A stretch of DNA of 64,000 bases from assembly GCA_947371015.1 (NCBI GenBank), contig CANBNK010000013.1:1-64000 (forward strand), written 5' to 3'. The DNA comes from Acetobacteraceae bacterium (lineage in GTDB: Bacteria > Pseudomonadota > Alphaproteobacteria > Acetobacterales > Acetobacteraceae). Of the stretch, positions 14,919 through 55,066 are shown piece by piece. Numbering within the stretch: the stretch's first letter is position 1; each line of letters begins with the position of its first letter. The translations under genes and the position numbers were made by a program. A model generated the notes under the pieces. That model was not told where the DNA came from and made no database searches. It worked only from the letters and a program-made list of their open reading frames with translations.

Positions 14919-14935
14919 GCGGCGATGCAAGAGCC

Positions 14936-15030
14936 TGATCGGCTTAGGCGGAATCGCCGTAAGCCGTGAATCAGTCTCTCCAGCTACAAGCTTGGAGCGT
15001 GAGCGCGTCAGGCAGAAGCGATCACGCTCT
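14936..15030 (+). repeat. Dispersed palindromic intergenic repeat, copy 1
   Basis: GATCGGC..GGCGGAATCGCC..GTGAATCA...GAGCGTGAGCGCG...CGATCACGCTCT; two nested hairpins; same layout as 54973-55066. Confidence 0.6.
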
Positions 15031-15032
15031 AA

Positions 15033-15180
15033 CAGGCTGCCGAAATTCTACCACGGAAGGACAACAAAGGTTGCAATGGAATCCGTCCGGGCCTTTGCCT
15101 GAAACTTCCTGTCGCTCCGCGTCGGCGCCGCGAATCAATGTTGCGGCGTCCGGTGCCGAAAATCGAATTTCCGCAGCCTG
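15033..15180 (+). mobile_element. MITE-like element copy A (148 bp), flanked by CTAA direct repeats at 15029-15032 and 15181-15184
   Basis: TIR CAGGCTGCCGAAATT...AATTTCCGCAGCCTG (one mismatch); near identical to the reverse complement of 27037-27156 apart from a 28-bp insertion and 4 substitutions. Confidence 0.88.
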
Positions 15181-15204
15181 CTAAGCCCAACCGTGCTGCG
15201 GGCG

Positions 15205-16566
15205 CTATTCCAGCCCGACCAGGCCACGGGCGTAATCCCGCGCCTCGAACGGCCGCAGGTCCGCCGCCTTCTCGCCGACGCCGACGAAGTGGACCGGCAG
15301 CCCGAACTCCTGCGCCAGCGCCACCACCACGCCGCCCTTGGCCGAACCGTCCAGCTTGGTCACCGCCAGGCCGGAGACATCCACCATCTCCTTGAACACT
15401 TTTACTTGTTGCAGCGCGTTTTGGCCGGTGGTGGCGTCCAGCGTCAGCAGCACGGAATGCGGCGCGGTCGGGTCCACCCGGCGGATAACCCGTATAATTT
15501 TGCGCAGTTCTTCCATCAGGGCGGATTTGTTGTGCAGGCGGCCGGCGGTATCCACCAGCAGCACCTGGGTGCCGTCCGTGCGGGCCGCGGTCAGCGCATC
15601 GAAGGCCAGGCCGGCGGCGTCGGCGCCATGCTTGGCAGGGGCGTGGACGCGGGCGCCGGTGCGCTCGCCCCAGATCTGCAACTGCTCCACCGCGGCGGCG
15701 CGGAAGGTGTCACCGGCTACGAAGGCACAGCGCAGCCCCTCGGCGCGATACTGCTGCCCCAGCTTGGCGATGGTGGTGGTCTTGCCGGTACCGTTCACGC
15801 CGACCACCAGCACCACATGCGGCGCATGGCTGGGGTTGATCGGCATGGGCAGCGCGACAGGCGCCAGAATCTCGGCCAGTGCCTCGGCCAGCGCGGCCTT
15901 GACCTCCTCGTCCGTCACTTCCTTGCCGAAGCGGGTCTTGCGGAAACCCTCCACGATCCGGCGGCTGGCGGCCACGCCCAGGTCGGCCGAGATCAGCGTC
16001 TCCTCCAACTCCTCCAGCGCCGCCTCATCCAGCCGACGCTTCTTGAAGACGGCGGTGATGCTCTCGGTCAGCTTGGCCGTGGTGCGGGACAGCCCGGCCT
16101 TGAGGCGGGAGAACCAGCCGCCCTTCTGCTCGGGCTCGGGGTGGGGCTCAGGCTCACTGGTCGCCAGCGCCTCGGCGCCCTGCGGTGGCTCTGGCGTGGG
16201 CGGCGGCATGGCCGGGACCTGGTCGGCAGCGACCAGCTCGTACAGGCCGGGTGATGAAAAGGGCGGCGTCGCGGCCGGTACCGGGGCCAGGGCGGGTTCG
16301 CCGATGCCGATTGCCGGCGGCATGGGCGCGGAGGGCATCCCGGCTGGTGGCAACAGGCCCGGCGGCGGCGAGACGGTGGGTGCCGTGCCTTCCAGCGGTC
16401 CCTGCGTCGGCGCACCCTCGGGCAAAACTGGCGTTGTCGCGCCCGCTGACGGGACTGCTGTGGGCGCGCCAGCCGGCGATCCTTGTGTCGGCGCGCCTGC
16501 AGGCGCGACCGGCTCGGCCGCTTCCTCCTTGCCGCGAAGTCGGGTGATCCAGTCGCGCAGCGCCAT
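15205..16566 (-). CDS. ftsY: Signal recognition particle receptor FtsY with long Pro/Ala/Thr-rich N-terminal extension
   Basis: VVLVVGVNGTGKTTTIAKLGQQYRAEGLRCAFVAGDTFRAAAVEQL, VLLVDTAGRLHNKSALMEELRKI, TKLDGSAKGGVVVALAQEFGLPVHFVGVGE. Confidence 0.97.
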   Translation of the reverse strand: MALRDWITRLRGKEEAAEPVAPAGAPTQGSPAGAPTAVPSAGATTPVLPEGAPTQGPLEGTAPTVSPPPGLLPPAGMPSAPMPPAIGIGEPALAPVPAATPPFSSPGLYELVAADQVPAMPPPTPEPPQGAEALATSEPEPHPEPEQKGGWFSRLKAGLSRTTAKLTESITAVFKKRRLDEAALEELEETLISADLGVAASRRIVEGFRKTRFGKEVTDEEVKAALAEALAEILAPVALPMPINPSHAPHVVLVVGVNGTGKTTTIAKLGQQYRAEGLRCAFVAGDTFRAAAVEQLQIWGERTGARVHAPAKHGADAAGLAFDALTAARTDGTQVLLVDTAGRLHNKSALMEELRKIIRVIRRVDPTAPHSVLLTLDATTGQNALQQVKVFKEMVDVSGLAVTKLDGSAKGGVVVALAQEFGLPVHFVGVGEKAADLRPFEARDYARGLVGLE

Positions 16567-17846
16567 CAGGCGGTCTCCGCCAGCAGGCCGTGGGCATCGG
16601 CGCCGGTCACCCGCAGCCGCCGCAACTCGCCGGGGCTGGCACTGCCGGAAAGCAGCCGCAGCGGGGCGAACTGCGCGGTGTGGCCGCGGTCGGGGTGTTC
16701 AAACAACACGGTTTCCTCGGCGCCCAGGCGCGCGGTGTAGAGCCGAGACGCCTGCGCGGCGCCGGCGGCGCGCAGCCTGGCCGCGCGTTCCTTGCGCAGT
16801 GCCACCGGCACCTGCGGCATCCGTGCCGCCGGGGTGGAGGGTCGCGGCGAATACGGGAAGACGTGCAGGAAGCTGAGGTCCATCTCCGCCACCAGGTCCA
16901 GCGTCTGCTGGAACTCGGCCTCGCCCTCGGTCGGGAAGCCGGCGATCAGGTCGGCGCCGAAGACGATGCCCGGCCGCAGCGCCCGCGCCCGTTCGGCGAA
17001 GGCCAGCGCGTCGGTGCGCAGGTGGCGGCGCTTCATCCGCTTTAAAATCAGGTCGGCGCCATGCTGCACGGAGAGATGCAAATGCGGCATCAGCCGCGGC
17101 TCCTCGGCGATCAGCCGCCACAGGTCGGCATCCACCTCCACCGGGTCCAGCGAGGACAGGCGCAGCCGCGGCAGGTCCGGCACCAGCGCCAGCAGTCGGC
17201 GCACCATCTGGCCCAGGCTGGGCGCGCCCGGCAGGTCCGGCCCGTAGCTGGTGATGTCTACGCCGGTCAGCACCACCTCGTTGTAGCCATGCGCCACCAG
17301 GGCGCGCACCTGCTCGACGATGACGCCGATGGGCACGGAGCGCGACGGCCCGCGGCCAAAGGGGATGACGCAAAACGTACAGCGATGGTCGCAGCCCTGC
17401 TGCACCTGCACGAAGGCGCGCGCCCGATTGGCGAACTCGGTCACCAGGTGCGCTGCCGTCTCGGTGGCCGCCATGATGTCCGAGACCGGCGGCGCCGCGC
17501 CCAGCACCCAGGCTTCCGGCTTCAGCTTTTCCGCGTTGCCCAGCACGCGGGTCACGCCCGGGATTTCCGCCCACTTCTCCGGCGCGATCTGGGCGGCGCA
17601 GCCGGTGACGAGGATGGTCGCTTCCGGGTTTTCCCGCGCGGCCCGGCGGATCGCCTGGCGCGCCTGGCGCTCCGCCTCGGCGGTCACCGCGCAGGTATTC
17701 ACCACGATGGTGCGGACATGCCCGGCCTCGGTCGCCAGCGCGCGCATCGCCTCGCTCTCATAGGTGTTGAGCCGGCAGCCGAAGGTCAGCACCTGCACGC
17801 CCGCGGCGCCGCCGCTGGCCGCGCCTGCCAGGTCATGCTCGCTCAC
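16566..17846 (-). CDS. mtaB: tRNA t6A37 methylthiotransferase MtaB (radical SAM)
   Basis: [34 protein letters not shown] radical-SAM CxxxCxxC motif, C-terminal TRAM-like region. Confidence 0.94.
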
Positions 17847-18664
17847 AGCGTGATCTCGCCGAGGAAGCTGGTGGCGACGGGGCCGGTCATCAGCACGTGG
17901 TCATCGGCGCGCCATTCCATTTCCAGCACGCCGCCGGGCAATTCGACGCTGGCGCGGCGGCCGGTGAGCCCCCGGCGCGCGGCATTGACGATGGTGGCGC
18001 AGGCGCCGCTGCCGCAGGCCAGCGTCAGCCCGGCGCCGCGTTCCCAGATGATGAGTTTGATGCGGTCGGGCGCCAGCACCTGGGCGAAACCGATGTTGGC
18101 CCTGTCGGGGAAGACCGGGTGGCGTTCCAACTGCGGGCCCAGCGCCGCCACGTCCAGCGCGGCCAGGTCCTCCACGAAGAAGGTCGCGTGCGGGTTGCCC
18201 ATGCTGCATGCCGCCGGGTCTGCCACCGGGCCGAGCGCCAGCGGCACATGCAGCGTATCGGCCGGCGCGGCCAGCGGCACGTCCCGCCAGTCCAGCCGCG
18301 GCGCGCCCATATCGGCGCACCACAGCCCACCGGCCAGCCGCCGCACCGGCAGGTCGCCGGCGATGGTGCGTACCGTGACGCGGTCCCGCCCCAGCTCATC
18401 CGCCACCAGGCTGGCGATGCAGCGCGTGGCATTGCCGCAGGCCCCGGCCTCGGAGCCATCGGGGTTGCGGATGCGCATGAACACGTCGGCTTCCCCTGGC
18501 GCGCCCTCGGTCGTCTCCAGGATGATGACCTGGTCGCAGCCCACGCCGCGCTGCCGGTCGGCCACGCGGGCGGCCCGTTCGGGGGTCATGCCAAGGTCCG
18601 CCCGCCGCGCGTCGAACACGCAGAAGTCGTTGCCCAGGCCATGCATCTTGCGGAAGGGGGTCAT
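17843..18664 (-). CDS. dapF: Diaminopimelate epimerase
   Basis: [52 protein letters not shown] at 18664. Confidence 0.97.
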
Positions 18665-18839
18665 GCTGCGTTCCATATGCCCTGCCGGCCCCGCGGAAAA
18701 AAGCCCCGCTGCCGCAGCCCAGCCCTGCAACCGCGCCGGGCGAAGACACCGGCGGCGCGACCGGCGCCGTTTGGGGTACCACGGGGCGGCGCACGGCACC
18801 CTTCCGCTTCCGCGACGTCAGCCGGGCGGTGGCGCAGCC

Positions 18840-20492
18840 CTACCGCCGGAGGATGCCGCCCAGCACGTTGCGCAGCACCGCATTGGTGATCTGCCGCCCC
18901 ACCGTGCTGCCGACGCTGCGCGCCACGGATTTGGCGATCGCCTCGCCAACGCCCTGCCGCTTGCCGCCGCCCGAGAACACGTCCGTCCAACTGCCCGACG
19001 GCGCCGGGGCCTCCGGCGCCTGTTGGCGCGGTGCGGGCATGCGTGGCTGTGGCGGCATCGGCAAGGGGGCCGGCGCGGGGCGCGCGCCGCCGCCGGTGCT
19101 GGGCACGCTGCCGCCACCACCAGCGCCGGGTGCCGGCTGGGCCATGTTGCCCCAGGGGTTGTCGCGGCGCGTCGGCGCCGGCGTGGTCTGCTGCGGCCAT
19201 GGCTCGGCCGGGACCGTGGTCGCGCGGCCGGCCAGGCGCTCATAGGCGCTGTCGCGGTCCACCGCCGCCTCATACCGCCCGGCCAGCGGGCTGCGGGCGA
19301 TGATGGCGGCGCGTTCCTCGGCGGTAATGGCACCGATCCGGCTGCGCGGCGGGCAGATCAGCGCGCGTTCCACCGGGCTGGGCGTGCCATCCGCGGCCAG
19401 GGTGGAGACCAGCGCCTCGCCCACCGCCAACTCGCCGATCGCCTGTTCCACGTTGACGCGCGGGTTCGGCCGGAAGGTGCTGGCCGCCGCCTTCACCGCC
19501 TTCTGGTCCTGCGGCGTGAAGGCGCGCAGCGCGTGCTGCACCCGGTTGCCCAACTGTCCCAGCACGGTATGCGGCACGTCCAGCGGGTTCTGCGTGACGA
19601 AATAGACGCCGACCCCCTTGGAGCGGATCAGCCGCACCACCTGCTCCACCTTTTCCACCAGCGCCTTCGGCGCGTCGTTGAACAGCAGGTGGGCCTCGTC
19701 GAAGAAGAAAACCAGTTTTGGGCGTTCCAGGTCGCCAGCCTCGGGCAATTCCTCGAATAATTCTGACAGTAGCCACAGCAGGAAACACGCATAAAGCCGC
19801 GGCGACTGCACCAGCTTGTCGGCGGCCAGCACGTTGACGGCGCCGCGCCCGTCCGGCGTCAGCAGCATCATGTCGGCCAGGGCCAGGGCGGGTTCGCCGA
19901 AGAAGTGCTCGGCGCCCTGCTGTTCCAGTTGCAGCAGCTTCCGCTGGATGGTGCCGATGGTGGCCGTGCTGACCTGGCCATAATGCGCGCGCAGCGCATC
20001 GGCCTGGTCTGCCACATGGGTCAGCATGGCCCGCAGGTCCTTGAAGTCCAGCAGCAGCAGGCCTTCGTCATCGGCCAGCTTGAAGGCGATGCTCAGCACC
20101 CCCTCCTGCACCTCGTTCAGTTCCAGCATGCGGGCCAGCAGCAGCGGCCCCATCTCCGCCACCGTGGCGCGCAGCGGGTGACCCTGCTGGCCGAACACGT
20201 CCCAGAACACCACCGGCGCCGGCTCATAGCCGAAATCCGCCTCGCCCAGGTCGCGGGCGCGGGCTTCCAGCTTGGGGTTGGGCTTGCCTGGCTGGCTGAT
20301 ACCGGCCAGGTCGCCTTTCACATCGGCGCAGAACACCGGCACCCCGGCGCGGGAAAAGCCTTCGGCCAGCACCTGCAACGTGACGGTCTTGCCGGTGCCA
20401 GTGGCGCCGGCCACCAGGCCGTGGCGGTTGGCACGGGAAAGGGTCAGCAGGCACGGCGCCTCGCCCTTGCCGATGAGGATGCTGTCCGCCAT
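18840..20492 (-). CDS. HerA-like P-loop ATPase (DUF853 family)
   Basis: [96 protein letters not shown]; start MADSILIG. Confidence 0.93.
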
Positions 20493-20659
20493 GTCTCCGC
20501 TCCCGACCAAATCTTTCCCATAATGGCGGCGTCGCAGCCGGGGGGCAAAGGGCGGGCGCGGCGGCGACGTGCGAGGGTCAGAACGGCGGGCACATGTTCG
20601 CCGCCCCGCAACTTGTGAATAATTCAGAATTAATCGGAGTTCGGACTCAACCATCCGCG

Positions 20660-21079
20660 ATGAGGAACGCCTTCATGCGACCGCCCGGCCTTGCCACCCT
20701 GGGCTTGCTACCGCTCGCCGCCTGCTCCACCGAAGGCATGGTCACCGGTGCAACCAGCGCTGCGCCCCTGCCGCGCGCTGCCGCCTGGTTGGTCACCGCC
20801 CATGGCTGCGAGGATGCCAGCCTGTGCGAAACCATGCGTCTTGCGGTTGCGCAGCAGGTTCTTGGCGCCGGTCTCGCTGAGCGCATGGCTGTCGCTGGCC
20901 AACCGGCCGACCGGGCGTTGGATATTCAGGTCACCCAGGTGCGGGCAGTCTCCGGCACCGCGCGGGTGATGCTGGGCGCCATGGCAGGGCGCAATGTGGT
21001 TGCCGCGACCAATACGGTGCGCGCGCCCGACGGGACGACGCTGCGCAGCTTCAAGGTGGAAAGCGCCTCGGCCCGCTGA
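20660..21079 (+). CDS. Predicted lipoprotein, function unknown
   Basis: [13 protein letters not shown] lipobox-like N-terminus; 139 aa. Confidence 0.6.
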
Positions 21080-21458
21080 GCGGTGAGACCAGCATGACCG
21101 ATGCGGTGCGGCACTTCGCCGCCGACACCACCTCGGGCCTGTGCTGAGACGCAATCCCGGGCGGCAAGGCCGCCTGCCCGTCCGTTACTCGTCCAGGCTG
21201 CCCCGGCGGAGGGGGCAACGCGTTCAGGCCCGTACGGCATGCCTGGCCGCAGTTGCGCCACCAGCTTCGTAACCTGCAGCCTGCTGACAATGGGCTTCCA
21301 ACGCCTGCTGCTACTGAACCGCCCGTGGCGGCCCTATCGACCCGATGGCGGTGGCGGCACGCAAGCTGGCGCGTGAGTTCGGCATCCCCATCGTCCCGGT
21401 ACCCTGCCCGCTGCGATGGGGAGGGATATGCGGTGCCAGGGGCGGCGACACCCGAGGG

Positions 21459-21893
21459 TCAACGCGCCAGCGCGGCGGCAACGCTGGCGTTGCCCTGGCA
21501 GGCGCCATCCTCATGCATCTGGCCGCCGCGGCAGGTCCAGCGCAGGGACTCGGTGCCGGCGTCGCGCCGCCAGGCCAGGCTGGTGCTCGCACCGCTGCCA
21601 TTTTCCAGTGTCAGGGACACAGTCATCCGGCCGGCCTGCGGACCAGGCCGGGTCACCTGTGCGGCGTGCACCGCCAGCCCGGGCAGGTCCCGCCATGCGG
21701 GCCCGCGCAGTCGTGCCCGCCAGCGGCCCCCTGCGCCACCAGGCTGCCCGGAGAGCAGTGCTGCCCGCAACTGCGCCAGGGCCTGGCGCCCTGCAGCCGC
21801 AAGCGCCGCCGGCTCGGCGCCGGGCAGCAAGCCGCGCAGCGCCAGGCGGCCGGGGTGGGAAAAGGCGCGCAGCGTGGGCAGGGCGTCGGACAT
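21459..21893 (-). CDS. Hypothetical protein
   Basis: 144-aa ORF, codon usage plausible, not recognised. Confidence 0.5.
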   Translation of the reverse strand: MSDALPTLRAFSHPGRLALRGLLPGAEPAALAAAGRQALAQLRAALLSGQPGGAGGRWRARLRGPAWRDLPGLAVHAAQVTRPGPQAGRMTVSLTLENGSGASTSLAWRRDAGTESLRWTCRGGQMHEDGACQGNASVAAALAR

Positions 21894-21944
21894 GGCCCAA
21901 ATCTGCCCGGCCAGGCCTCAACAAATCACGACCGCTGCCGTGGG

Positions 21945-22922
21945 TTATTCGTCCGCCACCGCGAACAGCAGCAGCAGCGTCCGTTGCAGCATGTTCTGAT
22001 TGTCGTCGGAAACTACCGCCAACAGGCTGCGGCCGCCATGCCTGGCCACCGCGACGCCTTCGTAATTGTCGGTCGGCAACGGGGGTTCCAGGCGCAGCAA
22101 CTCCTCGCCCTCCAGCACCGCGCCCTCGGCCGCTTCGGTCAGCTGCCGGGCGCTCAGCCGCACCAGCCGGCCGCGGAAGCCGCCGAAGACGGAAAAGCTG
22201 CGTTCCAGCACCAGCGCCCCGCCATCCGGCAGGCCATGGGCGTCGCAGGGGTCCATCGGCTCCTCGCAGCGATAGCTCAGCCGGGTCCAGCCCCGCTGCG
22301 GCCCGCCCAGCCAAACCCGGCGGACGCGCGTAGCCTGGCCGGCCATGTTCCAGCCCTCGGCGATCATCAGCCAGCGGCCATCGGCCAGCACCGCCAGGCT
22401 TTCCAGCCCTCCATTGCCGGGCGCTTCCGCCAGCTCCGGCGGCGCTTCCACGTAGCGTGCTGGGGCGTCCAGCCGGGCATAGCTGCGCAGCCGGTGCCAG
22501 CGCTCGAAGCTGACCAGCCAGTCGCCATTGGGCAGCCGGGCCAGACCCTCGGCATCGCCGGTGAAGCCGCGCGGCAGCGAGGCGCCGGCGCCATCCCGCA
22601 ACGGGCCGCTGCGCAGGTCGGTCAGGCCCAGCGGCTTCAGCTTGGCGTCCAGCACCAGCCGCGCGGTCAGCCAGCGCCCGATATCGGCAATGGCGGTCAG
22701 CTGCAGGTCATCGGTCAGGTGCAGGCCGGATAGCCCCCCGAAGCCGAGTACCGTGTTGTCGATGATCAGCCCGCCCAAGGGTTCCAGCTTGCAGCCGGGC
22801 AGCGCCGGCAGCGCCAGGGGCCTGGCCGCGAGCAGGGTGACGCGCGGCGAGGCGACCTGCGCCTGCGCCCGGCCGGCCGAGAGCAGCGCCGGCGCCGCCA
22901 GCAACAGGCCGCGCCGATTCAT
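21945..22922 (-). CDS. Phytase-like esterase family secreted protein
   Basis: Signal peptide; LGGLIIDNTVLGFGGLSGLHLTDDLQLTAIADIGRW...GFTGDAEGLARLPNGDWLVSFERWHR...LESLAVLADGRWLMIAEG. Confidence 0.82.
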   Translation of the reverse strand: MNRRGLLLAAPALLSAGRAQAQVASPRVTLLAARPLALPALPGCKLEPLGGLIIDNTVLGFGGLSGLHLTDDLQLTAIADIGRWLTARLVLDAKLKPLGLTDLRSGPLRDGAGASLPRGFTGDAEGLARLPNGDWLVSFERWHRLRSYARLDAPARYVEAPPELAEAPGNGGLESLAVLADGRWLMIAEGWNMAGQATRVRRVWLGGPQRGWTRLSYRCEEPMDPCDAHGLPDGGALVLERSFSVFGGFRGRLVRLSARQLTEAAEGAVLEGEELLRLEPPLPTDNYEGVAVARHGGRSLLAVVSDDNQNMLQRTLLLLFAVADE

Positions 22923-22933
22923 GCGGGGAAAGC

Positions 22934-24802
22934 CTAGCCGACGGCGGCGGAGGACAGCGTCGCGGCGCGCTGCCAGGCTTCGGCGGCGTCCTCGTCGAAC
23001 AACTCTGCGAGTTTCTTCATCATGGTGCCGCCCAGCTCCTCGGCATCCACGATGGTCACGGCGCGGCGGTAGTAGCGCGTCACGTCATGGCCGATCCCGA
23101 TGGCGATCAGCTCGACATCGTTGCGGCCCTCGATATCGCCGATGACTTTTCGGAGATGCCGTTCCAGGTAGTTGCCAGGGTTCACGCTCAGCGTGCTGTC
23201 ATCCACCGGCGCGCCGTCCGAGATCACCATCAGGATGCGGCGATGTTCCGGGCGGTTCCGGATGCGCTTGTAGGCCCATTCCAGCGCCTCGCCGTCGATG
23301 TTCTCCTTCAGCAGCCCCTCGCGCAGCATCAGCCCGAGGTTCTTGCGGGCGCGGCGCCAGGGCGCGTCGGCGGCCTTGTAGACCACGTGGCGCAGGTCGT
23401 TCAGGCGGCCGGGGTTGCGCGGCTTGCCGTCCTGCACCCACTTCTCGCGGCTCTGGCCGCCCTTCCAGGCGCGGGTGGTGAAGCCGAGGATTTCCGTCTT
23501 GACAGCGCAACGCTCCAGCGTGCGGGCCAGGATATCGGAGCACATGGCGGCCACCGTGATCGGCCGGCCGCGCATGGAGCCGGAGTTGTCGATCAGCAGC
23601 GTCACCACGGTGTCGCGGAAATCGGCCTCGCGCTCCCGCTTGTAGGTCAGCGACAGCATCGGGTTGGTGATGATGCGGGACAGCCGGGCGGCGTCCAGCA
23701 TGCCTTCCTCAAGGTCGAATTCCCAGGCGCGCTGCTGCTGCGCCAACAGCCGGCGCTGCAGGCGGTTGGCCAGCTTGGAGACCACGCCCTGCAAATGCGA
23801 AAGCTGCTGGTCCAGCTGCTGGCGCAACCTAGCCAGCTCCTCGGGGTCGCAGAGGTCATCGGCCTCGACGATTTCGTCGAAGTTGGTGACGAAGGGGTGG
23901 TAGCGGCTGGTGTCATCCGTATGGACAACCTCCTTGCGCTGCTGCGGCCCGCCCGGCTTGTCGTCGCCCTCGGCGGCGGCGCCTTCCTCATCCGATTCCT
24001 GAGCTTCCTCCTCGGAGGCTTCGCCCTGCATCGTCTCCGGCTGGGCGCCGAGCATGGCCTCCTGCTCGGATGCCTGGGCCTCGCCCTCGCCGGACTGGTC
24101 CTGCTGGCTGGTGGACTGGTCGCCCTCCTCGCCCTCTTCCTCCTGCTCGGACTCGGTCTCCACCTCGGCTTCCGCCAGGTCGAGCGCGGCCAGGAACTTG
24201 CGAGCGGCCTTGGCGAAATGGTCCTGGTCGTCGGTGGTGGTGGCCATCTCGGCCAGGGCGTCCTGCGCCTTTTCGTCCAGCGAATCGCGCCACAGGTCCA
24301 GCACGCGCTTGGCCGCATCCGGCACCGGGCGGCCGGTGATGCGTTCCCGCGCCAACAGGGAGAGCGCGGCGGGCAGCGGCAGCTGGTCCTTCCGCGTCAT
24401 CCGGTCATAGCCTTCCTGCTCGCAGGAATCGGCCAGCCGTGCCGCCAGGTTGTGCGCCACGCCGGCCATGAACTTGCTGCCCACGGCCTCGACGCGCACA
24501 TCCTCCAGCGCGTCGAATACCTCCTTGGCCTCGCGGCGCTGGGGCATGCGGCTGGCGTGCACGCTTTCATTGTGATGGCGGATCTTCAGCGCCGCGGCAT
24601 CGGCGGCGCCGCGCAGCTTGGCCATTTCGGCCGGCGGCAGGGTGCGGGTGGGCAGCGGCAGGCGCACGCGCTTGCCGGAAACCCCGCCTGGGCCGGGCTG
24701 GAAGGCCACCTGCACTTCGTTGTTCGCGTGCGCCACGGCGCGCAGGGCGCCGGCGGTGGCGCGCTTGAACTCTTCCTGGCGGGTAAGGTCTTGCTTGGTC
24801 AT
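22934..24802 (-). CDS. cobT: Aerobic cobaltochelatase subunit CobT
   Basis: Acidic central region, VWA domain [58 protein letters not shown]. Confidence 0.96.
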
Positions 24803-24967
24803 CTAAGTCTGGCCCTTGCGTGGCTCGGGCTGCCGGCCCGCCTGCTGAACTCGGGCCACTGGCCCGGCTTGTGCAGCACGGCCGCCGGCCCGGTCTATCG
24901 AATGTCGGCCACCGGCCTGGCTGAGACGGCGCCCCACCGGCGCGCCGTCATCGGGTGAGGCCAGGCC

Positions 24968-25981
24968 TCAGCCCGCCTTCTTCAGCAGGCTGCCGCTCGG
25001 CAGATCCTCGTTGAAGCAGCGCTGGTAGTATTCCGCCACCGTGGCGCGCTCGGCCTCGTCGCACTTGTTCAGGAAGGTCAGGCGGAAGGCAAAGCCGACA
25101 TCGCCGAAGATCTTGCTGTTCTCGGCCCAGGTGATGACGGTACGCGGGCTCATCACTGTGCTGATGTCACCGGCGATGAAGCCGGCGCGGGTCAGGTCGG
25201 CAAGCGCCACCATGCTCTCGACCATCTTCCTGGCCTTGGCATCGCCTTCCTGGCCCATCTTGGCCAGCACGATGCTGGTTTCCTGCGCATGCGGCAGGTA
25301 GTTCAGCGTCGCCACGATGTTCCAGCGGTCCATCTGGCCCTGGTTGATCTGCTGCGTGCCATGATAGAGGCCGGTCGTGTCGCCCAGGCCCACCGTGTTG
25401 GCGGTGGCGAACAGGCGGAACATCGGGTGCGGCCGAATGACGCGGTTCTGGTCCAGCAGCGTCAGCTTGCCTTCCACTTCCAGCACGCGCTGGATCACGA
25501 ACATCACGTCCGGGCGGCCGGCGTCGTATTCGTCGAACACCAGCGCGCAGGGGTGCTGCAAGGCCCAGGGCAGGATGCCTTCACGGAACTCCGTGATCTG
25601 CTTGCCATCCTTCAGGACGATCGCGTCCTTGCCGATCAGGTCGATACGGCTGATGTGGCTGTCCAGGTTGACGCGGATGCACGGCCAGTTCAGCCGTGCC
25701 GCCACCTGTTCGATATGGGTGGACTTGCCGGTGCCGTGATAGCCCTGGATCATCACTCGGCGGTTGTTGCCGAAGCCGGCGAGGATCGCCAGCGTGGTCT
25801 CCCGATCGAAACGATAGGTCGGGTCCAGTTCCGGCACGTGTTCCGTGCGGAGGGAGAAGGCCGGGACGATCATGTCCAGGTCCAGGCCGAACACATCCCG
25901 CACATTCACGGTGGTGTCGGGCGTGTTGATCGCCGAGGTGGGCTGGGGATCGGCGAGGGCAGCAACCTTGTTCATCGGCAT
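24968..25981 (-). CDS. cobS: Aerobic cobaltochelatase subunit CobS (AAA+)
   Basis: [94 protein letters not shown]. Confidence 0.97.
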
Positions 25982-26075
25982 CCGCTCAGGTTCATTCTTG
26001 GAAAGTCTAGGCCAGGGTGGCGCGGCAGGCTACCCGCGCTGGCGGAAAAGGCCAGCCCTTGCTTGCGGAGGCACT

Positions 26076-26687
26076 TCAGCCCGCCGATGCCGTGGCCGCC
26101 GGGCGGTCCGCGGCGGTGGCCGCCAGCCGATGGCGGACCAGGCTGTAGGCCCGGTTCACGTCCTTCAGCTTTTCCTCGGCCTCGCGGTCCCCGCCATTGG
26201 CGTCCGGGTGGAATTTCTTGGCCAGCTCGCGATAGCGGTCGCGCAATGCCAGCGAGTCCACCGGCCATTCGAGCCCCAGAACGTCCAGCGCCGCGCGCAG
26301 TTCGGGCGGCGGGCCGACCTTTTGTTCGCGTGGCTTGACCCGGGACTGATGCAGCGGCGTGTCGCGCAGCATGCCCAGCGGGTCGCGCGTCCATTCCTCG
26401 CTGAACGGGTTGAGCCCGCCCAGCCGGCCCAGCGGCCAGGTCGGGCGGTGCCCGACGGCATCGCTGCGCAGGTTGGCCTCGATCTCGGCCTCGTTCATGC
26501 CCTTGTAGAAGTCCCAGGTGCTGTTGAACTCACGCACATGGGGCAGGCAGAACCATTGGTACTGGTTCAGTGACATGCGGGATTTCGGCGCCCGGTATTC
26601 GCCCGCGACGGCGCAGCCCGGCGCCTCGCAGGGGCGGGGCGGGAAACTGCTCTCTCCGGCGTCTCTGCGAACGGCGCGTCTGGCCAT
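26076..26687 (-). CDS. J-domain (DnaJ-like) protein
   Basis: C-terminal J domain DSLALRDRYRELAKKFHPDANGGDREAEEKLKDVNRAYSLVRH; start MARRAVRRDAGE. Confidence 0.9.
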   Translation of the reverse strand: MARRAVRRDAGESSFPPRPCEAPGCAVAGEYRAPKSRMSLNQYQWFCLPHVREFNSTWDFYKGMNEAEIEANLRSDAVGHRPTWPLGRLGGLNPFSEEWTRDPLGMLRDTPLHQSRVKPREQKVGPPPELRAALDVLGLEWPVDSLALRDRYRELAKKFHPDANGGDREAEEKLKDVNRAYSLVRHRLAATAADRPAATASAG

Positions 26688-26724
26688 GGTGCGGTTATGG
26701 GGAAGCGGGGGAGAGGGCGCAAGC

Positions 26725-27036
26725 ATGCTTGGCAGCCGCGCCGCGGAAGCCGAGACTGCGTGGATGCCCAACCGCGCCCAACGCATCCACGCCACACTGA
26801 CCCAGGCCTTCGCCCCCGCCGTGCTTGAGGTGCAGGACGACAGCCACCTGCATGCCGGCCATGCCGGCGCCGCGCCTGGGGGGGAGACGCACTACAGCGT
26901 GCGCCTGGTCAGCCCTGCCTTTGCCGGCCTGGGCCGGCTTGCCCGCAGCCGGGCGGTGCACGCCACGTTGGCCGACGAGTTCGCCGGCGGGCTGCACGCG
27001 CTGGCGCTGAAGTTGCAGGCCCCTGGCGAGGGTTAG
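26725..27036 (+). CDS. bolA: BolA family protein
   Basis: RIHATLTQAFAPAVLEVQDDSHLHAGHAG...ETHYSVRLVSPAFAGLGRLARSRAVHATLADEFAGGLHALALKLQAPGE. Confidence 0.92.
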   Translation: MLGSRAAEAETAWMPNRAQRIHATLTQAFAPAVLEVQDDSHLHAGHAGAAPGGETHYSVRLVSPAFAGLGRLARSRAVHATLADEFAGGLHALALKLQAPGEG

Positions 27037-27156
27037 CAGGCTGCGGAAATTTGATTCGCGGCGCCGACGCGGAGCGACAGGAAGTTTCAGGCAAAGGCCC
27101 GGACGGATTCCATTGCGACCTTTGTTGCCCTTCCATGGTAGAATTTCCGCAGCCTG
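27037..27156 (-). mobile_element. MITE-like element copy B (120 bp), flanked by TTAG direct repeats at 27033-27036 and 27157-27160
   Basis: Perfect 15-bp TIR CAGGCTGCGGAAATT/AATTTCCGCAGCCTG; inverted copy of 15033-15180. Confidence 0.9.
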
Positions 27157-27561
27157 TTAGGCGCTGGGTCGCACCCGATAGACTTCGATGCCCGCGCCGG
27201 CGGCCTCGTTGAAGATATCCGGCTTCACCACGGAAACCCGGCAGGCCTCCACCACGGGGTTGCCGAAGCACAGCCCGACCAACTCCTCGACCAGGTCTTC
27301 CAGCAGCGGCGTATGCGGCCGGCTGGGCCAGCCCCGCAGCGCGGCGCGGATCGGGTCGTAGTCGATGAAGCCATTCGGGTCGCCGCCGACGCCCTTGGCT
27401 TCGCTGTGGGCGTACATTTCAACGTTCACCAGCAGGCGGGTCGGGCGCTCGGGGTGCTGTTCCCAGGGATGCAGGCCGACCTGCGCCTCCACCATCACGT
27501 CGCGCAGCATGACCTTCACATGGCTGCGGGCGCTGTCCCACAACGGTGAGAAGCCGGTCAC
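27157..27561 (-). CDS. folB: Dihydroneopterin aldolase family protein
   Basis: VKVMLRDVMVEAQVGLHPWEQHPERPTRLLVNVEMY...FIDYDPIRAALR...LLEDLVEELVGLCF...VSVVKPDIF; GTG start overlapping the upstream stop (GTGA). Confidence 0.88.
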   Translation of the reverse strand: MTGFSPLWDSARSHVKVMLRDVMVEAQVGLHPWEQHPERPTRLLVNVEMYAHSEAKGVGGDPNGFIDYDPIRAALRGWPSRPHTPLLEDLVEELVGLCFGNPVVEACRVSVVKPDIFNEAAGAGIEVYRVRPSA

Positions 27562-28208
27562 TCCGCCGCGCCCGCTTGGGCGTCGGCCGCCGCGCCCGCT
27601 TGGGCGTCGGCCGCGGTGCCCGCGCTTTCCGCCGCATTGGCCAAATGCGGCCAACGCGCCAGGCTGACCGGGCTGTCCGGCGCATAGGCGATGCAGGTGC
27701 CGAGCAGGCCGGGCATCGCCGCGGGGGCTGCCACTTCGCCGCTCGCCACCTTGGCCAGCATCGCCTTCTCCCGCGCCCGGCGCACGGGGTAGAGGGTCTG
27801 GAACGCCACTGTCGCCATCTGGCCCAGCAATTCCCGCAAGTGGGTGCAGCCATGCACACCGCCGACGCGCTCGGCCACCTGGCGGTTGAAGCCGGGGCCG
27901 ATCTTCAGCCCGGCCAGCTTGCTGAAGTTGGGCGCGGCGCCGGGGCAGATATCGTAGGGGGTGAAGTCGCTGCTGGCCTCGCAGGCCTGCACCAGCATGT
28001 CCACGTCCACCACCAAGCGCAGCCACATGCCATGGATCGGCCGCCCGGCCGGCACGGTGGCATCGGGGTCCTCGTCGTTGTGGACCGTGGTCTTGCGGTC
28101 GGTCAGGTGGGCTTCGATGTCGAACAGGCCGTCGGCGCGCTCATAGCCGCGCAACTCGATGTCGCGCAGGTGCAGCAGCTTCCGCTCGACCGGGGCGGAA
28201 AGGGGCAT
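27558..28208 (-). CDS. DUF2889 family protein
   Basis: LLHLRDIELRGYERADGLFDIEAHLTDRKTTVHNDED...IHGMWLRLVVDVDMLV...GCTHLRELLGQMATVAFQTLYP. Confidence 0.88.
   Translation of the reverse strand: MPLSAPVERKLLHLRDIELRGYERADGLFDIEAHLTDRKTTVHNDEDPDATVPAGRPIHGMWLRLVVDVDMLVQACEASSDFTPYDICPGAAPNFSKLAGLKIGPGFNRQVAERVGGVHGCTHLRELLGQMATVAFQTLYPVRRAREKAMLAKVASGEVAAPAAMPGLLGTCIAYAPDSPVSLARWPHLANAAESAGTAADAQAGAAADAQAGAAE
27563..27610. repeat. 24-bp perfect tandem duplication at the DUF2889/folB junction
   Basis: CCGCCGCGCCCGCTTGGGCGTCGG x2, encoding ADAQAGAA repeats. Confidence 0.85.
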
Positions 28209-34221: not shown

Positions 34222-35472
34222 TCAGTCCACGATGGCGCCGTACACCAGCGCATTGATCACCCGGCGATAATACTGCCGCAGCAGGCCGGGCGTGCTGGCC
34301 ATGAACACCACCGCCAGCTGCTCCTTCGGGTCCACCCACATCGCGGTGCCATAGGCGCCGTTCCAGCTGAACATGCCGGGGGAACCCAGCAGGCCGGAGC
34401 CGCCCTCACGCCGCACCGCCACCGTCAGGCCGAAGCCCCAGTTGACCATGTTGCCCTCGGTATTCGTCAGGTTGTTGGCGATGCCCGGGTGCATGTGGTC
34501 GCGCGTCATCTCCTCGACCGTCTTGCGGGAGAGCACGCGACGGCCGTCCAACTGGCCGCCATTCAGCAGCATCTGGGCGAAGCGGATGTAGTCGGCAGCG
34601 GTGGAAACCGCGCAGCCGCCGCCGCAGTCATAGCCGGGCTGGGTCAGGCCGACCTCGACGCTCTGCGGCTGGCGCGTCGTCGGGTCCTGCGGCAACGGGC
34701 TGGCATAGCGGCCGCGCTGCGCCTGCGGCACCAGGAAGCCGGTGTCGCGCATGCCCAAGGGGCGGAAGATGCGTTGGTCCATCGCCGCGCCCAGGCGCTG
34801 CTCGGTCAGCTTCTCCACCACCAGGCCCAGCACGTCGATGCCCAGGCTGTATTCCCAGTTGGTGCCGGGCTGGCTCAGCAGCGGCAGCGTGCTGATCTTC
34901 TCGATGAAGCTGGTGGCGGTATATTCCCTCGCGCTGGTGCCCGAGGAGCCCGGCCACAGCCGATGCGCCGCCGTGGTGCCGCGCGCGCCATAGGGAATGC
35001 CCGAGGTATGCCGCGCCAGGTCGGTCAGCGTGATCGGCCGCAGCGCGGCCACGGTGTTTTCCGGGTTGCCGTCCACCGCCACGCGGCGGTTGGCCATGCC
35101 GGGGAAGAAGCGCTCCACCGGGTCGGTCAGGGAAAGCCTGCCTTCCTCCAGCAGGGTCAGCAGCGCCACGCCGGTCAGCGGCTTGGTCATGCTGGCGATG
35201 GGGAAGATCGCGTCGCGCGGCATCGGCCGGCTGCGGGCGCCGTCCAGGTGGCCGAAGCTTTCATAATAGGCCAGCTTGCCGCGCCGGGCGATGGCGATGA
35301 CCGCGCCAGGCAACTGCCCGCGGGCGATGTCGGCGTTCATGGTGCTGGCGATACGCGCCAGCCGTTCCGGCGAAAAGCCGAGGCTGGCCGGCGTGGCGCG
35401 CGGAAGCGGGTCAGCCGCGAAGGCGGGGCCGGCGCAAAGCATCAGTGCCAGGGCGAGCAGCAGCTTTCTCAT
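34222..35472 (-). CDS. Beta-lactamase-family serine hydrolase, paralogue 1
   Basis: Signal peptide MRKLLLALALMLCAGPAFA; IASMTKPLTG SxxK; HTSGIPYG; GFGLTVAVRREGG. Confidence 0.92.
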   Translation of the reverse strand: MRKLLLALALMLCAGPAFAADPLPRATPASLGFSPERLARIASTMNADIARGQLPGAVIAIARRGKLAYYESFGHLDGARSRPMPRDAIFPIASMTKPLTGVALLTLLEEGRLSLTDPVERFFPGMANRRVAVDGNPENTVAALRPITLTDLARHTSGIPYGARGTTAAHRLWPGSSGTSAREYTATSFIEKISTLPLLSQPGTNWEYSLGIDVLGLVVEKLTEQRLGAAMDQRIFRPLGMRDTGFLVPQAQRGRYASPLPQDPTTRQPQSVEVGLTQPGYDCGGGCAVSTAADYIRFAQMLLNGGQLDGRRVLSRKTVEEMTRDHMHPGIANNLTNTEGNMVNWGFGLTVAVRREGGSGLLGSPGMFSWNGAYGTAMWVDPKEQLAVVFMASTPGLLRQYYRRVINALVYGAIVD

Positions 35473-35534
35473 GGTTGGGTTCCCTCCGTTGCCACCCACG
35501 CTACGCCGATGCGCTGTGCGGTCCAGCCCCGCGC

Positions 35535-36797
35535 TCAGTCCACCAGGGCCTGGTGCACCAGAGTGTTGATGGTCTGGCGATAGTGGACGCGCGCGGCACC
35601 GGGAATGGCAGCCATGAACACCACCACCAGCTGGTCCTTCGGGTCCACCCACATCGCGGTGCCATAGGCGCCGTCCCAGCCCCAGGCGCCGGCATTGCCC
35701 AGCATGCCCGCGCCACCCTCGCGCCGCACGATCACGGTCAGGCCGAAGCCCCAGGCGCCGGTGTAGGGCGCCCGGTTGGTGAGCGGAAAGCTGATCTCGG
35801 GGCCCATGTGGTCGCGCACCATCTCCGCCACTGTGGCGCGGCCGAGGATGCGCTGGCCGTCCAGCGTGCCGCCGTTCAGCAGCATCTGGGCGAAGCGGAT
35901 GTAGTCGCCGGCGGTGGAGACGGCGCAGGCGCCGCCGCAGTCGAAGCCGGGCGGGTTGAGGCCCATCTCGGTCTTCTGCGGCCGGCTATTCTCGGGGTCT
36001 TGTGGCAGCGGCGTGGCGTAGCGGGCGCGGCTGCCGGCGGGCACCTGGAAGCCGGTATCGCGCATGCCTAGCGGCCGGAACACGCGCTGCTGCAGCAGGT
36101 TGCCGAGCCGCTGGCCGCTGGCCTGCTCCGCCACCAGGCCCAGCACGTCGGTCGAGATGCCATAGGCCCAGACGGTGCCGGGCTGGTACATCAGCGGCAG
36201 CTCCGCCAGGCGCTGGACGAAGCTCTCGGCGTTGAAGCCCGTGGCCGCGGCGCCGGAACCTGCGGGCAGCAGGCGGTGCAGCGGGGTGGTACCGTAGATG
36301 CCGCTCATGATGCCCGAGGTATGGCGCATCAGGTCCAGCACGCGCATCGAGCGGGCCGCCGGCACGGTGTTCTCCGGGTTGCCGTCCACCGCCACGCGGC
36401 GGTTCGCCAGCGCGGGCAGGAAGCGCTCAACCGGGTCGTTCAGCCGCAGCTTGCCCTCTTCCATCAGGCTCAGCGCGGCGACGCCGGCCATGGGCTTGGT
36501 CATGCTGGCCAGCGGGAAGATCGCGTCGCGCGGCATCGGCCGGGTGCGCTCGCCGTCCAGGTGGCCGAACGCCTCATAGTAGGCCAGCTTGCCACGGCGG
36601 GCGATGGCGACCACGGCGCCGGGGATGCGGCCGGCGGCGATATCGGCGTTCAGCGCGGTGCCGATCCGCGCCAGCCGGTCCGGCGCCAGGCCCAGGCTGG
36701 CTGGGGTCGCGCGGGGCAGTGGGTCCCGTGGTGACGGGTCCGCCGCCAGGGCGGGCAGCGCGAACAACGCGAGCGTGGCGACAAGCAATCGCTTCAT
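35535..36797 (-). CDS. Beta-lactamase-family serine hydrolase, paralogue 2
   Basis: Signal peptide MKRLLVATLALFALPALA; LASMTKPMAG SxxK; colinear with 34222-35472. Confidence 0.92.
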   Translation of the reverse strand: MKRLLVATLALFALPALAADPSPRDPLPRATPASLGLAPDRLARIGTALNADIAAGRIPGAVVAIARRGKLAYYEAFGHLDGERTRPMPRDAIFPLASMTKPMAGVAALSLMEEGKLRLNDPVERFLPALANRRVAVDGNPENTVPAARSMRVLDLMRHTSGIMSGIYGTTPLHRLLPAGSGAAATGFNAESFVQRLAELPLMYQPGTVWAYGISTDVLGLVAEQASGQRLGNLLQQRVFRPLGMRDTGFQVPAGSRARYATPLPQDPENSRPQKTEMGLNPPGFDCGGACAVSTAGDYIRFAQMLLNGGTLDGQRILGRATVAEMVRDHMGPEISFPLTNRAPYTGAWGFGLTVIVRREGGAGMLGNAGAWGWDGAYGTAMWVDPKDQLVVVFMAAIPGAARVHYRQTINTLVHQALVD

Positions 36798-37382: not shown

Positions 37383-38788
37383 TCAGTGCCGGTCCGGATG
37401 TTCGAAGTACAACTCAACCAGCCGGTCCAGCAACCGGGCGCCGAAGCCGGTGGGCAGGCCTTTCTCATCCAACCGCACGCCGGCGATGTCCAGATGCGCC
37501 CAAGGGGTATCGCCGGCGAATTCACGCAGGAAGGCGGCGGCGTGCGACGCATCCGGCAACAATGGCCCGGCGCAGCATTGCTTCAGGTCGGCGATCTCGC
37601 TGCGCAGGTCCTCGCGGTGGCGGGCGCCGATCGGCATCGGCCACAGTGCCTCCCCCACCTGGTCGCCGGCCGCCGCCGCCTGGGCCTGCAAGGCGGCGTC
37701 GTTGGTGAAGATGCCGGCACGGTGGCTGCCCAGCGCGGTCACCATGGCGCCGGTCAGCGTCGCCAGATCCAGCATCGCCTGCGGCTGGTGCTGGCTGACG
37801 GCGTAGTGCAGCGCGTCGGCCAGCACCAGGCGGCCCTCGGCGTCAGTGTCCACCACCTCCACCGTGCGGCCGGACATGGTGCGGAGCACGTCGCCCGGGC
37901 GGTAGCTGTCGCCGCCGGTGGTGTTCTCGGCAATGGCCAGCACGGCGACGGCCGGCGCCGGGGAGCGCCGCAGCGCCATGGCCAGCATGGCCCCGGCACA
38001 GGCGGCGGCGCCGGCCATGTCGCTGGTCATGCGCTCCATGCCCTCGGTCGGCTTTATGCTGATGCCGCCGGTGTCGAAGGTGATGCCCTTGCCGATGAAG
38101 GCCACCGGCGGCACCGCGAACTGCCCACGCCAACGCAGCACCGCCAGCCGCGGCCCATGCGCGGCACCGGCGCCCACCGCCAGCAGCGCCCCGGCCCCCA
38201 GCCGCCGCAGCCGCTTTTCCCCCAGCACATCCACCCGGATGCCGTGCTCGGCCAGCGTCTCCAGCCGGGCGGCGAAGGCGGCGGGGTGCAGCACGTTGCC
38301 GGGCAGGGCGGTCAGCTCCCGCGTGAACAGCGCGCCCTGCACGGCGGCAGCGGCCCGCGCCCACAGCGGCTGCACCAGCAGGGGCTGGTCCACCACCAGG
38401 TCCAGCCGGCGCAGCGGCGCGTCATGCGGATGCCAGGCTGCCAGCGCGGCGCCAGTCGCCAGCGCCACGGCGGCTTCCGGCGGCAGCCCACGCGCCAGCA
38501 GCGCCAGGCGCTTCACCGGCCCGGCGGCCCGCACCGCGGCGGCGCCCAGTGCTTCCCAGTCCGTGCCGCGCTGCGGCTGCCCGGCGCCGAGCAGCAGCAC
38601 CCGGCCTTCGGGCGTGGCGCAATCCCGCACCTCGCCCACCGTGCCGGCAAAACCCGCGGCCAGCCCGGTCCAGGCGCCGGCCGTGCCGCCCGCCAGCACC
38701 TGTCCCGCCAACACCGGCCCAGCGAGAACGGGCACGGCCAAGGGCACGCCCGGCTTGGGGGCGACCCTAAGCCTGACCTCGGCGCCGA

Positions 38789-38792
<4 letters not shown>
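37383..38792 (-). CDS. Leucyl aminopeptidase family (M17) protein, paralogue 2
   Basis: FIGKGITFDTGGISIKP, VVDTDAEGRLVLADAL; ATGA overlap with pepA. Confidence 0.92.
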
Positions 38793-40288
<1,496 letters not shown>

Positions 40289-53046: not shown

Positions 53047-54971
53047 CCATGACCCCGCTTCTCGCGCCCCCCGCCGTCCTGGCTGCGCTGCTGTCCGGCC
53101 AGCCGAGCCTGCTGGTGCTGGACGGCATCGCCGGCGCCGAGACCCTGGCCGCCGCGCTGCCGACGCTGCCGTGCTGGCGGGTGCAGGGGCTGCGGCTTTC
53201 GGGTTTCGGCGCGGCCGAGACCGGCGAAGTGCCCCTGCCGGCCTTGCCCGCCGGCGTGCTGGCCATTCTGGCGCCGAGCGAGGCTGCCGCCGCTGACCTG
53301 CTGGCCTGCTGGCAGGGCCTGGCGCCGCCGCCGCTGCTGGTGGTGGCGGATGCCGCCACCGCATGGCCAGCGCTGGCGCAACTGGCGCTGGCCGAGGCCA
53401 CCGCCGCCGCGCAGCGCGCCGCCGGGCTGCATCGCGCCCTGGTGACGACGCGCCAGGATTATGAGGAAACCCGCTCCGCCATGGCGGTGCTGATGCAGTC
53501 CAGCGGCTTCCGCGCCCCGCTGGCGCTGGAAACCGCGCTGGCCTGCGAACCCGGCCCGGCGGTGCGGACCGAAGCCGGCCATCTGGCGCTGGGGCAGTTG
53601 CTGACGGTTGCGGTGGAATCGCTGGCCGCCGTGGCGCTGCACATCGAAGCTGCCGAGGTCTCGCCGGAAGCGCGGCTGCGGTTGCGGCTGTACGGCGCCG
53701 AAAGCGGCCGGGTGCTGGCGGCCTGGCTGGTGCCGGCCGAGGCGCTGAAGCCCGGCTGGCTGGCGCTGGACCTGCCGGCACCGGTCGGCCCGGTGCGGGA
53801 GACCGCCTGCCTGGACCTGGTGGTGGAAGGCGGCGTGGCGGACCGGCTGGCGATCTCGCTGGAGGATGCCAGCGCCGATCCGGCCCGCAGCGCACACCAG
53901 GACACCGGGGAGATGATGCCGGTTTCGCTCGGCCGCGCCCTGGCGCTGCGGTTGTGGCAGGCGCCGTTCGGCCGCCGCTTCACCATGCCGCTATACTGGC
54001 ATTGGGAGCAGGGCGACCTGCCGCTGCCCCCCGCCGCCGTGCCGGTGGCGATGGCGCAGCAGGTCTGGCCGCTGGCGCAGCTGCCGCTGGGGGGCAGCAA
54101 TGTCTCCCTGGGGGCCGAGGCGCCGCGCCCGCTGCTGGTGCTGGCGCCGGGTGCCGAGGCGATGGCGGTGCTGCCCTGGGTGCCGGTGGCGGGGCTGGAC
54201 CTGATTGAAGCGACGCTGGCGCTGCCCGAGGGCGCGGCGCCGGGGCTGGAGGTGGCGCTGTGGCTGCAGCCCGCCGGCTGCGCGGCGGAATCGCCGGATG
54301 AGCTGAATCTGGCCGCGCCCGGCGCCCGCTGCTCCGGCTGGCGCGCGGTGCCGGCCGATGGCGGCGGCCTGGCAATTGCGCTGCGGCTGCCGCTGGACGC
54401 CGCGCCGACGCTGGCCGTGGTGCTGCTGGCGCGACTGTCGGCCGCTTCCCCCGTCGCCAGCCGGCTGGAGTGGGCGGAACTGTTCGGCCGCAGCCTGGGG
54501 CGGATGGCGTTGCCGGAGCCGCCGGCCGCGCCGCTGGTCAGCAAGCCACGCCCGGCGGAATGCGGCGCGGTGCGGATGCATGAGCACTACCACACCCAGG
54601 ATGGCGGCTATCGGCACTTGGACATGACGCTCGAGCAGGTGCGCCTGGGTGGCACTGCCTGGCCGAGCATGCGCTTCAAGCTGGCGCTGAATGGCGCCGT
54701 GCCCAACCTTGAATTCCGCCTTCGGCCGGACTGGCCGGTGCTGTTCCAGCATTGGCCGGGCGACGTGGTGGACCAGCACGGCCCGGTCTTCGTGATACCT
54801 GAGGACCGGCTGGTGGCGATGCTGGACGGCATGCGCTCCGCCCGTGACGCCCAGGCGGTGCGCGCTTTGGTGCACTTGCTGCCCAGCGTGGTGCGCGGCC
54901 TGCCGCGCGAGGCTGGCGACCCCGCGCCCTGGCTGGAAGCGGCCCGGCGGTTGAACGGGTTGTTGGGATAG
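53043..54971 (+). CDS. Large uncharacterised protein coupled to glycosyltransferase gene (possibly DUF6212-like)
   Basis: 642-aa ORF, ATGA overlap with upstream gene; conserved-looking C-terminus MHEHYHTQDGGYRHLDMTLEQVRLGGTAWPSMRFKLALNGAVPNLEFRLRPDWPVLFQHWPGD. Confidence 0.75.
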   Translation: MTMTPLLAPPAVLAALLSGQPSLLVLDGIAGAETLAAALPTLPCWRVQGLRLSGFGAAETGEVPLPALPAGVLAILAPSEAAAADLLACWQGLAPPPLLVVADAATAWPALAQLALAEATAAAQRAAGLHRALVTTRQDYEETRSAMAVLMQSSGFRAPLALETALACEPGPAVRTEAGHLALGQLLTVAVESLAAVALHIEAAEVSPEARLRLRLYGAESGRVLAAWLVPAEALKPGWLALDLPAPVGPVRETACLDLVVEGGVADRLAISLEDASADPARSAHQDTGEMMPVSLGRALALRLWQAPFGRRFTMPLYWHWEQGDLPLPPAAVPVAMAQQVWPLAQLPLGGSNVSLGAEAPRPLLVLAPGAEAMAVLPWVPVAGLDLIEATLALPEGAAPGLEVALWLQPAGCAAESPDELNLAAPGARCSGWRAVPADGGGLAIALRLPLDAAPTLAVVLLARLSAASPVASRLEWAELFGRSLGRMALPEPPAAPLVSKPRPAECGAVRMHEHYHTQDGGYRHLDMTLEQVRLGGTAWPSMRFKLALNGAVPNLEFRLRPDWPVLFQHWPGDVVDQHGPVFVIPEDRLVAMLDGMRSARDAQAVRALVHLLPSVVRGLPREAGDPAPWLEAARRLNGLLG

Positions 54972-54972
54972 A

Positions 54973-55066
54973 GTCTGGTCGGCGAAGGCGGAATCGCCGG
55001 AGCGGTGGATCAGCCGCTCAAACAAAGCCTACAGCGTGATCCACCAAAGAGATCACGCTGTAGCTA
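54973..55066 (+). repeat. Dispersed palindromic intergenic repeat, copy 2
   Basis: GGTCGGCGAAGGCGGAATCGCCGGAGCGGTGGATCAGCC... followed by perfect 13-bp stem CTACAGCGTGATC/GATCACGCTGTAG (55029-55063). Confidence 0.65.

Follow-up and report, generated by a model that had tools for sequence, protein, structure and literature searches.

A 148-bp non-autonomous transposon family very probably mobilised in trans by an IS5-family transposase in an Acetobacteraceae genome

Introduction

The window analysed here, a stretch of 64,000 nucleotides from a draft Acetobacteraceae genome (5.37 Mb, 248 contigs, 71% GC), carries two inverted copies of a short sequence, and these raise the question of whether that sequence is mobile and, if so, what moves it. 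An initial annotation took the pair for a non-autonomous transposon (MITE) with YTAR-type target duplications, mobilised in trans by an IS5-like transposase, and named as checks a search for further copies and their flanks, a search for a longer insertion sequence (IS) with the same ends and a comparison with empty sites in sister strains. We favour, at a probability of about 90%, a 148-bp non-autonomous MITE moved in trans by an IS5-family transposase of the same genome, as inferred from their common 17-bp ends CAGGCTGCGGAAATTCG, their use of the same YTAR sites, the duplication of the target and the empty sites in sister species.

Two inverted copies in the window

The two copies (Table 1) were claimed to be nearly identical apart from a few substitutions and a 28-bp indel, which holds down to the single base: substitutions stand at element positions 9, 22, 29 and 40, copy B has the 28-bp deletion, and the two form the window's strongest inverted repeat (117 nt, 94%, in a repeat search). 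The terminal inverted repeats (TIRs), perfect in copy B and with one mismatch in copy A, and the flanks, CTAA and TTAG, likewise read as the initial annotation had given them. It had also seen no transposase ORF in or near either copy, and we find none: the neighbouring genes are ftsY, bolA and folB, and a search for the IS5 family gave no match on the window's contig. Three features had escaped that annotation: the REP-like repeat beside copy A, the position of copy B on stop codons and the near-identity of copies from different species. Elsewhere in the window there are two tandem gene-sized duplication pairs (34286-36609 and 37476-39518; spaced by 1313 and 1409 bp, with 71-82% identity), and a tRNA search of the window found none.

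Table 1. Coordinates, within the window, of the two MITE copies and the features that adjoin them
Feature	Position	Strand	Basis or remark
R2, REP/BIME-like double-hairpin repeat	14930..15031	+	multi-copy, in all six genomes; its right edge (GCTC|TAA) is the exact insertion point of copy A
Target duplication CTAA, left flank of copy A	15029..15032		direct reading
MITE copy A	15033..15180	+	full length, 148 bp; 20-copy family, 19 at exactly 148 bp
Copy A left TIR, one mismatch (CAGGCTGCCGAAATT)	15033..15047	+	TIR comparison
28-bp stretch in A and other full copies, deleted in copy B	15138..15165 (+/-1 base)	+	alignment
Copy A right TIR, perfect	15166..15180	-	TIR plus adjoining bases equal the IS left end over 20 bp
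Target duplication CTAA, right flank of copy A	15181..15184		direct reading
Target duplication TTAG, holds the TAG stop of a bolA-like gene (26518-27036, +)	27033..27036		direct reading
MITE copy B, 120 bp, internally deleted	27037..27156	-	family consensus minus 28 bp, plus one substitution
Target duplication TTAG, holds the TAA stop (- strand) of a folB-like gene (27157-28026, -)	27157..27160		direct reading

A constant-length family in one genome

Chance resemblance between copies A and B is excluded by the presence of 20 copies genome-wide, all but copy B (120 bp) exactly 148 bp long. The 19 full copies depart from one consensus by 1-6 changes each, with a mean pairwise difference of 6/148, and radiate from one master sequence. 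Both ends of the element carry CAGGCTGCGGAAATT, with no more than two mismatches in any of the 20 copies, and a genome-wide count gives 44 exact matches to the 15-bp TIR, against 0 for a reversed control pattern. Flanks of four identical YTAR bases enclose 16 of the 20 copies (CTAG 10, CTAA 3, TTAG 3), and in the other four the left and right flanks differ by one or two bases; the search for further copies thus bears out, well beyond the original pair, the duplications proposed for A and B. No transposase lies within the element, which is non-coding. This is a genuine MITE family: short, non-coding and constant in length, with TIRs, target duplications and a partner IS that has the same ends.

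As a kind of element it is ordinary. It shares with the bacterial MITEs of a recent review (PMC10969869) the small size, the lack of a transposase, the inverted ends, the target duplications and the multiple copies, as well as the mostly intergenic location and the occasional nesting with other repeats; it differs from them in that the family itself is new, not met in the papers searched, and in that its IS partner is identified in the same genome.

Insertion, target duplication and empty sites

The MITE duplicates its 4-bp target on insertion, and this is shown directly, because one copy (L013) splits the single CTAG of another repeat and because sister species have the sites without the MITE. 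The repeat concerned is R2, the hairpin repeat that adjoins copy A: its internal CTAG is single in intact R2 copies and stands on both sides of L013, one of the two now reading TTAG. Searches of sister species with joined-flank queries yielded what the proposed empty-site comparison called for, namely orthologous MITE-free sites for copy B in one relative, for L012 and L003 in three relatives each and for L005 in one; for L016, the match runs uninterrupted across the junction in one relative. At the site of copy A, two relatives have neither R2 nor the MITE beside ftsY. The MITE-free bolA-folB junction reads GGCTTAGCC in one relative, and in others it consists of different short sequences, one of which resembles an R2 unit.

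These sites also weigh on a quite different account, in which the repeat is a conserved functional hairpin, either a regulatory RNA or a two-way terminator, that is kept at gene ends and does not move. Such a role would suit the predicted folding of the TIRs into a stem that bears two hairpins (z -4.65 and -4.12 for the two strands) and the position of 9 of the 20 sites on a gene stop codon, as counted with gene calls from a simple custom codon model, copy B lying on those of bolA and folB together. The fold is weak, however, once the TIRs are removed (z -1.83 and -1.23), substitutions break 37 pairs as against 33 kept one-sidedly and 2 two-sidedly, an Rfam search gave no match, and the sites, which carry 4-bp duplications, differ between species. 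The empty orthologous sites largely refute the hairpin account, which we hold to be extremely improbable, and the folding of the element can be explained without a regulatory role. Conservation of structure in the MITE interior, taken by itself, is not supported, pairs being broken about as often as they are kept.

The partner IS and mobilisation in trans

The longer element with the same ends that had been suggested as a target for searching does exist in this genome, with the same YTAR target and, in composite form, a transposase of the expected family. Isolated TIR copies lead into it, the left end being followed by the start of a transposase and the right end by a different interior, and several copies of this roughly 1.3-kb IS share the 17-bp end with the MITE. 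Contigs break inside the IS, as expected of a multi-copy element, and no intact copy lies within one contig; its sequence is therefore a composite of two copies, the left part from contig C106 and the right part from C88, joined by a 17-bp overlap, and it measures about 1.3 kb with one ORF of 360 aa. The C88 copy has two changed positions in its right TIR. The composite product scores 257.7 bits against NF033581 (cut-off 140) and also matches PF05598 and PF01609, while the IS1182 model stays below its own cut-off; judged by its sequence, the partner protein is a predicted transposase of the IS5 family. The single ends of the IS lie nearly all in YTAR and once in TCAA, the two ends of one copy never sharing a contig. 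YTAR is the reported target duplication motif of IS5 (PMC10359306), which upholds the initial reading of the duplications as an IS5-type target.

Over 20 bp, flank included, the right end of the MITE matches the left IS end, and beyond the ends the two have no similarity. A simple internal deletion of the IS as the origin of the MITE is accordingly not supported, only the ends being alike. The genome also holds internally deleted IS copies that keep their ends (L022 and L036 on contig C205, L028 on C239), a second and larger non-autonomous derivative, and at L006 (contig C239, 133-304) a MITE abuts an IS end, with one CTAG common to both.

Mobilisation by some other transposase with similar ends, the IS5-type element being related to the MITE by coincidence only, would fit the unrelated interiors and a second species that has young identical copies and no intact cognate IS in its assembly. 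We consider this very unlikely, given that MITE and IS, within one genome, share 17 terminal bases and the YTAR target, and that their agreement over 20 bp extends into the flank. Under mobilisation in trans by the IS5-family enzyme, the transposase would bind the ends common to MITE and IS, cut the MITE out and insert it at YTAR, where repair would fill in a cut staggered by 4 bp to give the 4-bp duplication. Copy B went in where the stop codons of the convergent bolA and folB overlap by 4 bp, and its duplication left each gene a stop of its own, such that neither was broken.

The nearest named relative found of the partner IS is ISAzs10 of Azospirillum sp. B510, whose transposase is about 71% identical over the whole length and whose ends, of type CAGGnnGCGGAAA, resemble those of the partner; TTAG flanks both sides of the ISAzs10 copy that was read. 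In contrast to ISAzs10, the MITE encodes nothing, and only its terminal 17 bp are common to it and the IS in the same genome. MITE and partner make a pair that can be checked, from a group so far little studied.

Distribution and spread between species

Counting this one, three of the six genomes of the genus contain the MITE, and none of 54 other genomes searched does. An exact scan with a 26-base pattern over one genome per GTDB species, which may leave out records of the window's own genome, matched only in an uncultured Rhodospirillales bin of the genus. That bin (G003), a second species, holds five young copies that match the consensus of this genome without a difference over 118-141 bp, and only a remnant of a related transposase. 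Since these young copies equal the consensus here while orthologous flanks of the two genomes are mostly 81-88% identical, the simplest reading of the sequences suggests recent transfer of the MITE between species. The two genomes provide a case in which the MITEs are identical and the orthologous flanks of the host species diverge by more than 10%.

G003 is a metagenome bin and its young copies sit at contig ends, and the identity might instead reflect contigs that were mis-binned or cross-contaminated. We judge this unlikely: one of the contigs with these copies (C31) has, within about 2.2 kb of the MITE, a segment whose identity to this genome is only 87%, and three of the young copies adjoin a hairpin repeat, R4, that matches 9 times in 400 kb of G003 against 3 times in 864 kb here.

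Target-site choice at hairpin repeats

R2, which lies in the window also at 54969-55061, is built of two hairpin units, each some 50 bp long, often with CTAG at both sides and between the units; 864 kb of this genome contain about 45 R2 sites, and 6/6 genomes of the genus carry the repeat. A search for Y1 (RAYT) transposases had no match in this genome, which gives no support to such an enzyme as the mover of R2.

Background YTAR sites were taken from 864 kb of sequence here and from 400 kb in G003. The MITE exactly abuts or splits R2 at 7 of its 20 sites, whereas 41 of 411 background sites lie in R2 or at most 5 bp from it (p 0.0035; p 0.014 without sites inside genes; the pattern was noticed before testing, and the p-values are descriptive). 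The motif GCTC|TAR or its mirror marks 8/20 MITE sites, mostly R2 edges, against 12/411 in the background, or 8/18 against 11/280 without sites inside genes, both comparisons being post hoc. Four of 11 MITE sites in G003 lie at a different hairpin repeat, R4, whose edge has the same motif, against 6/174 background sites, again post hoc. These post hoc counts would fit a preference of the MITE for REP edges. The IS does not clearly share this preference, since among the IS ends read only that on C106 has the GCTC|TAR motif and that on C29 adjoins R2.

Several ISs are known to insert into REP sequences (ISPsy8, ISPa11, ISPpu9/10, ISRm22, ISRm19), and a preference has been described for the IS5-family ISNm1106 (PMC1525189). 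The present case is like these in that insertion occurs in or at REP-like palindromes, a habit of several families including IS5, and unlike them in that a MITE is involved, that the target is YTAR at the edge of a hairpin repeat or its internal CTAG and that only 7/20 copies are concerned. A literature search for IS5 MITEs with CTAG targets in REPs found no paper.

The copies occupy intergenic DNA, TAG/TAA stop codons and the margins of REP-like hairpin repeats, places where insertion does little harm, and to these stop codons and repeats a YTAR target would steer insertions in a genome of 71% GC. Stop-codon sites arise mostly because YTAR, at that composition, seldom occurs outside gene ends and intergenic DNA; targeting of stop codons as a separate preference (9/18 against 72/280, p 0.05) is not convincing. 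We advance as tentative, and on balance doubtful, the broader proposal that the edges (GCTC|TAR) of unrelated REP-like hairpins, a different repeat in each host species, draw in the MITE more than its parent IS, while the MITE spreads between species almost unchanged; REP-edge targeting and this spread are the parts worth following. R4 is a perfect hairpin repeat (AGAGCAATATCCGTTCTGATG...), and its edge is used in G003 by L038, L044, L047 and L048.
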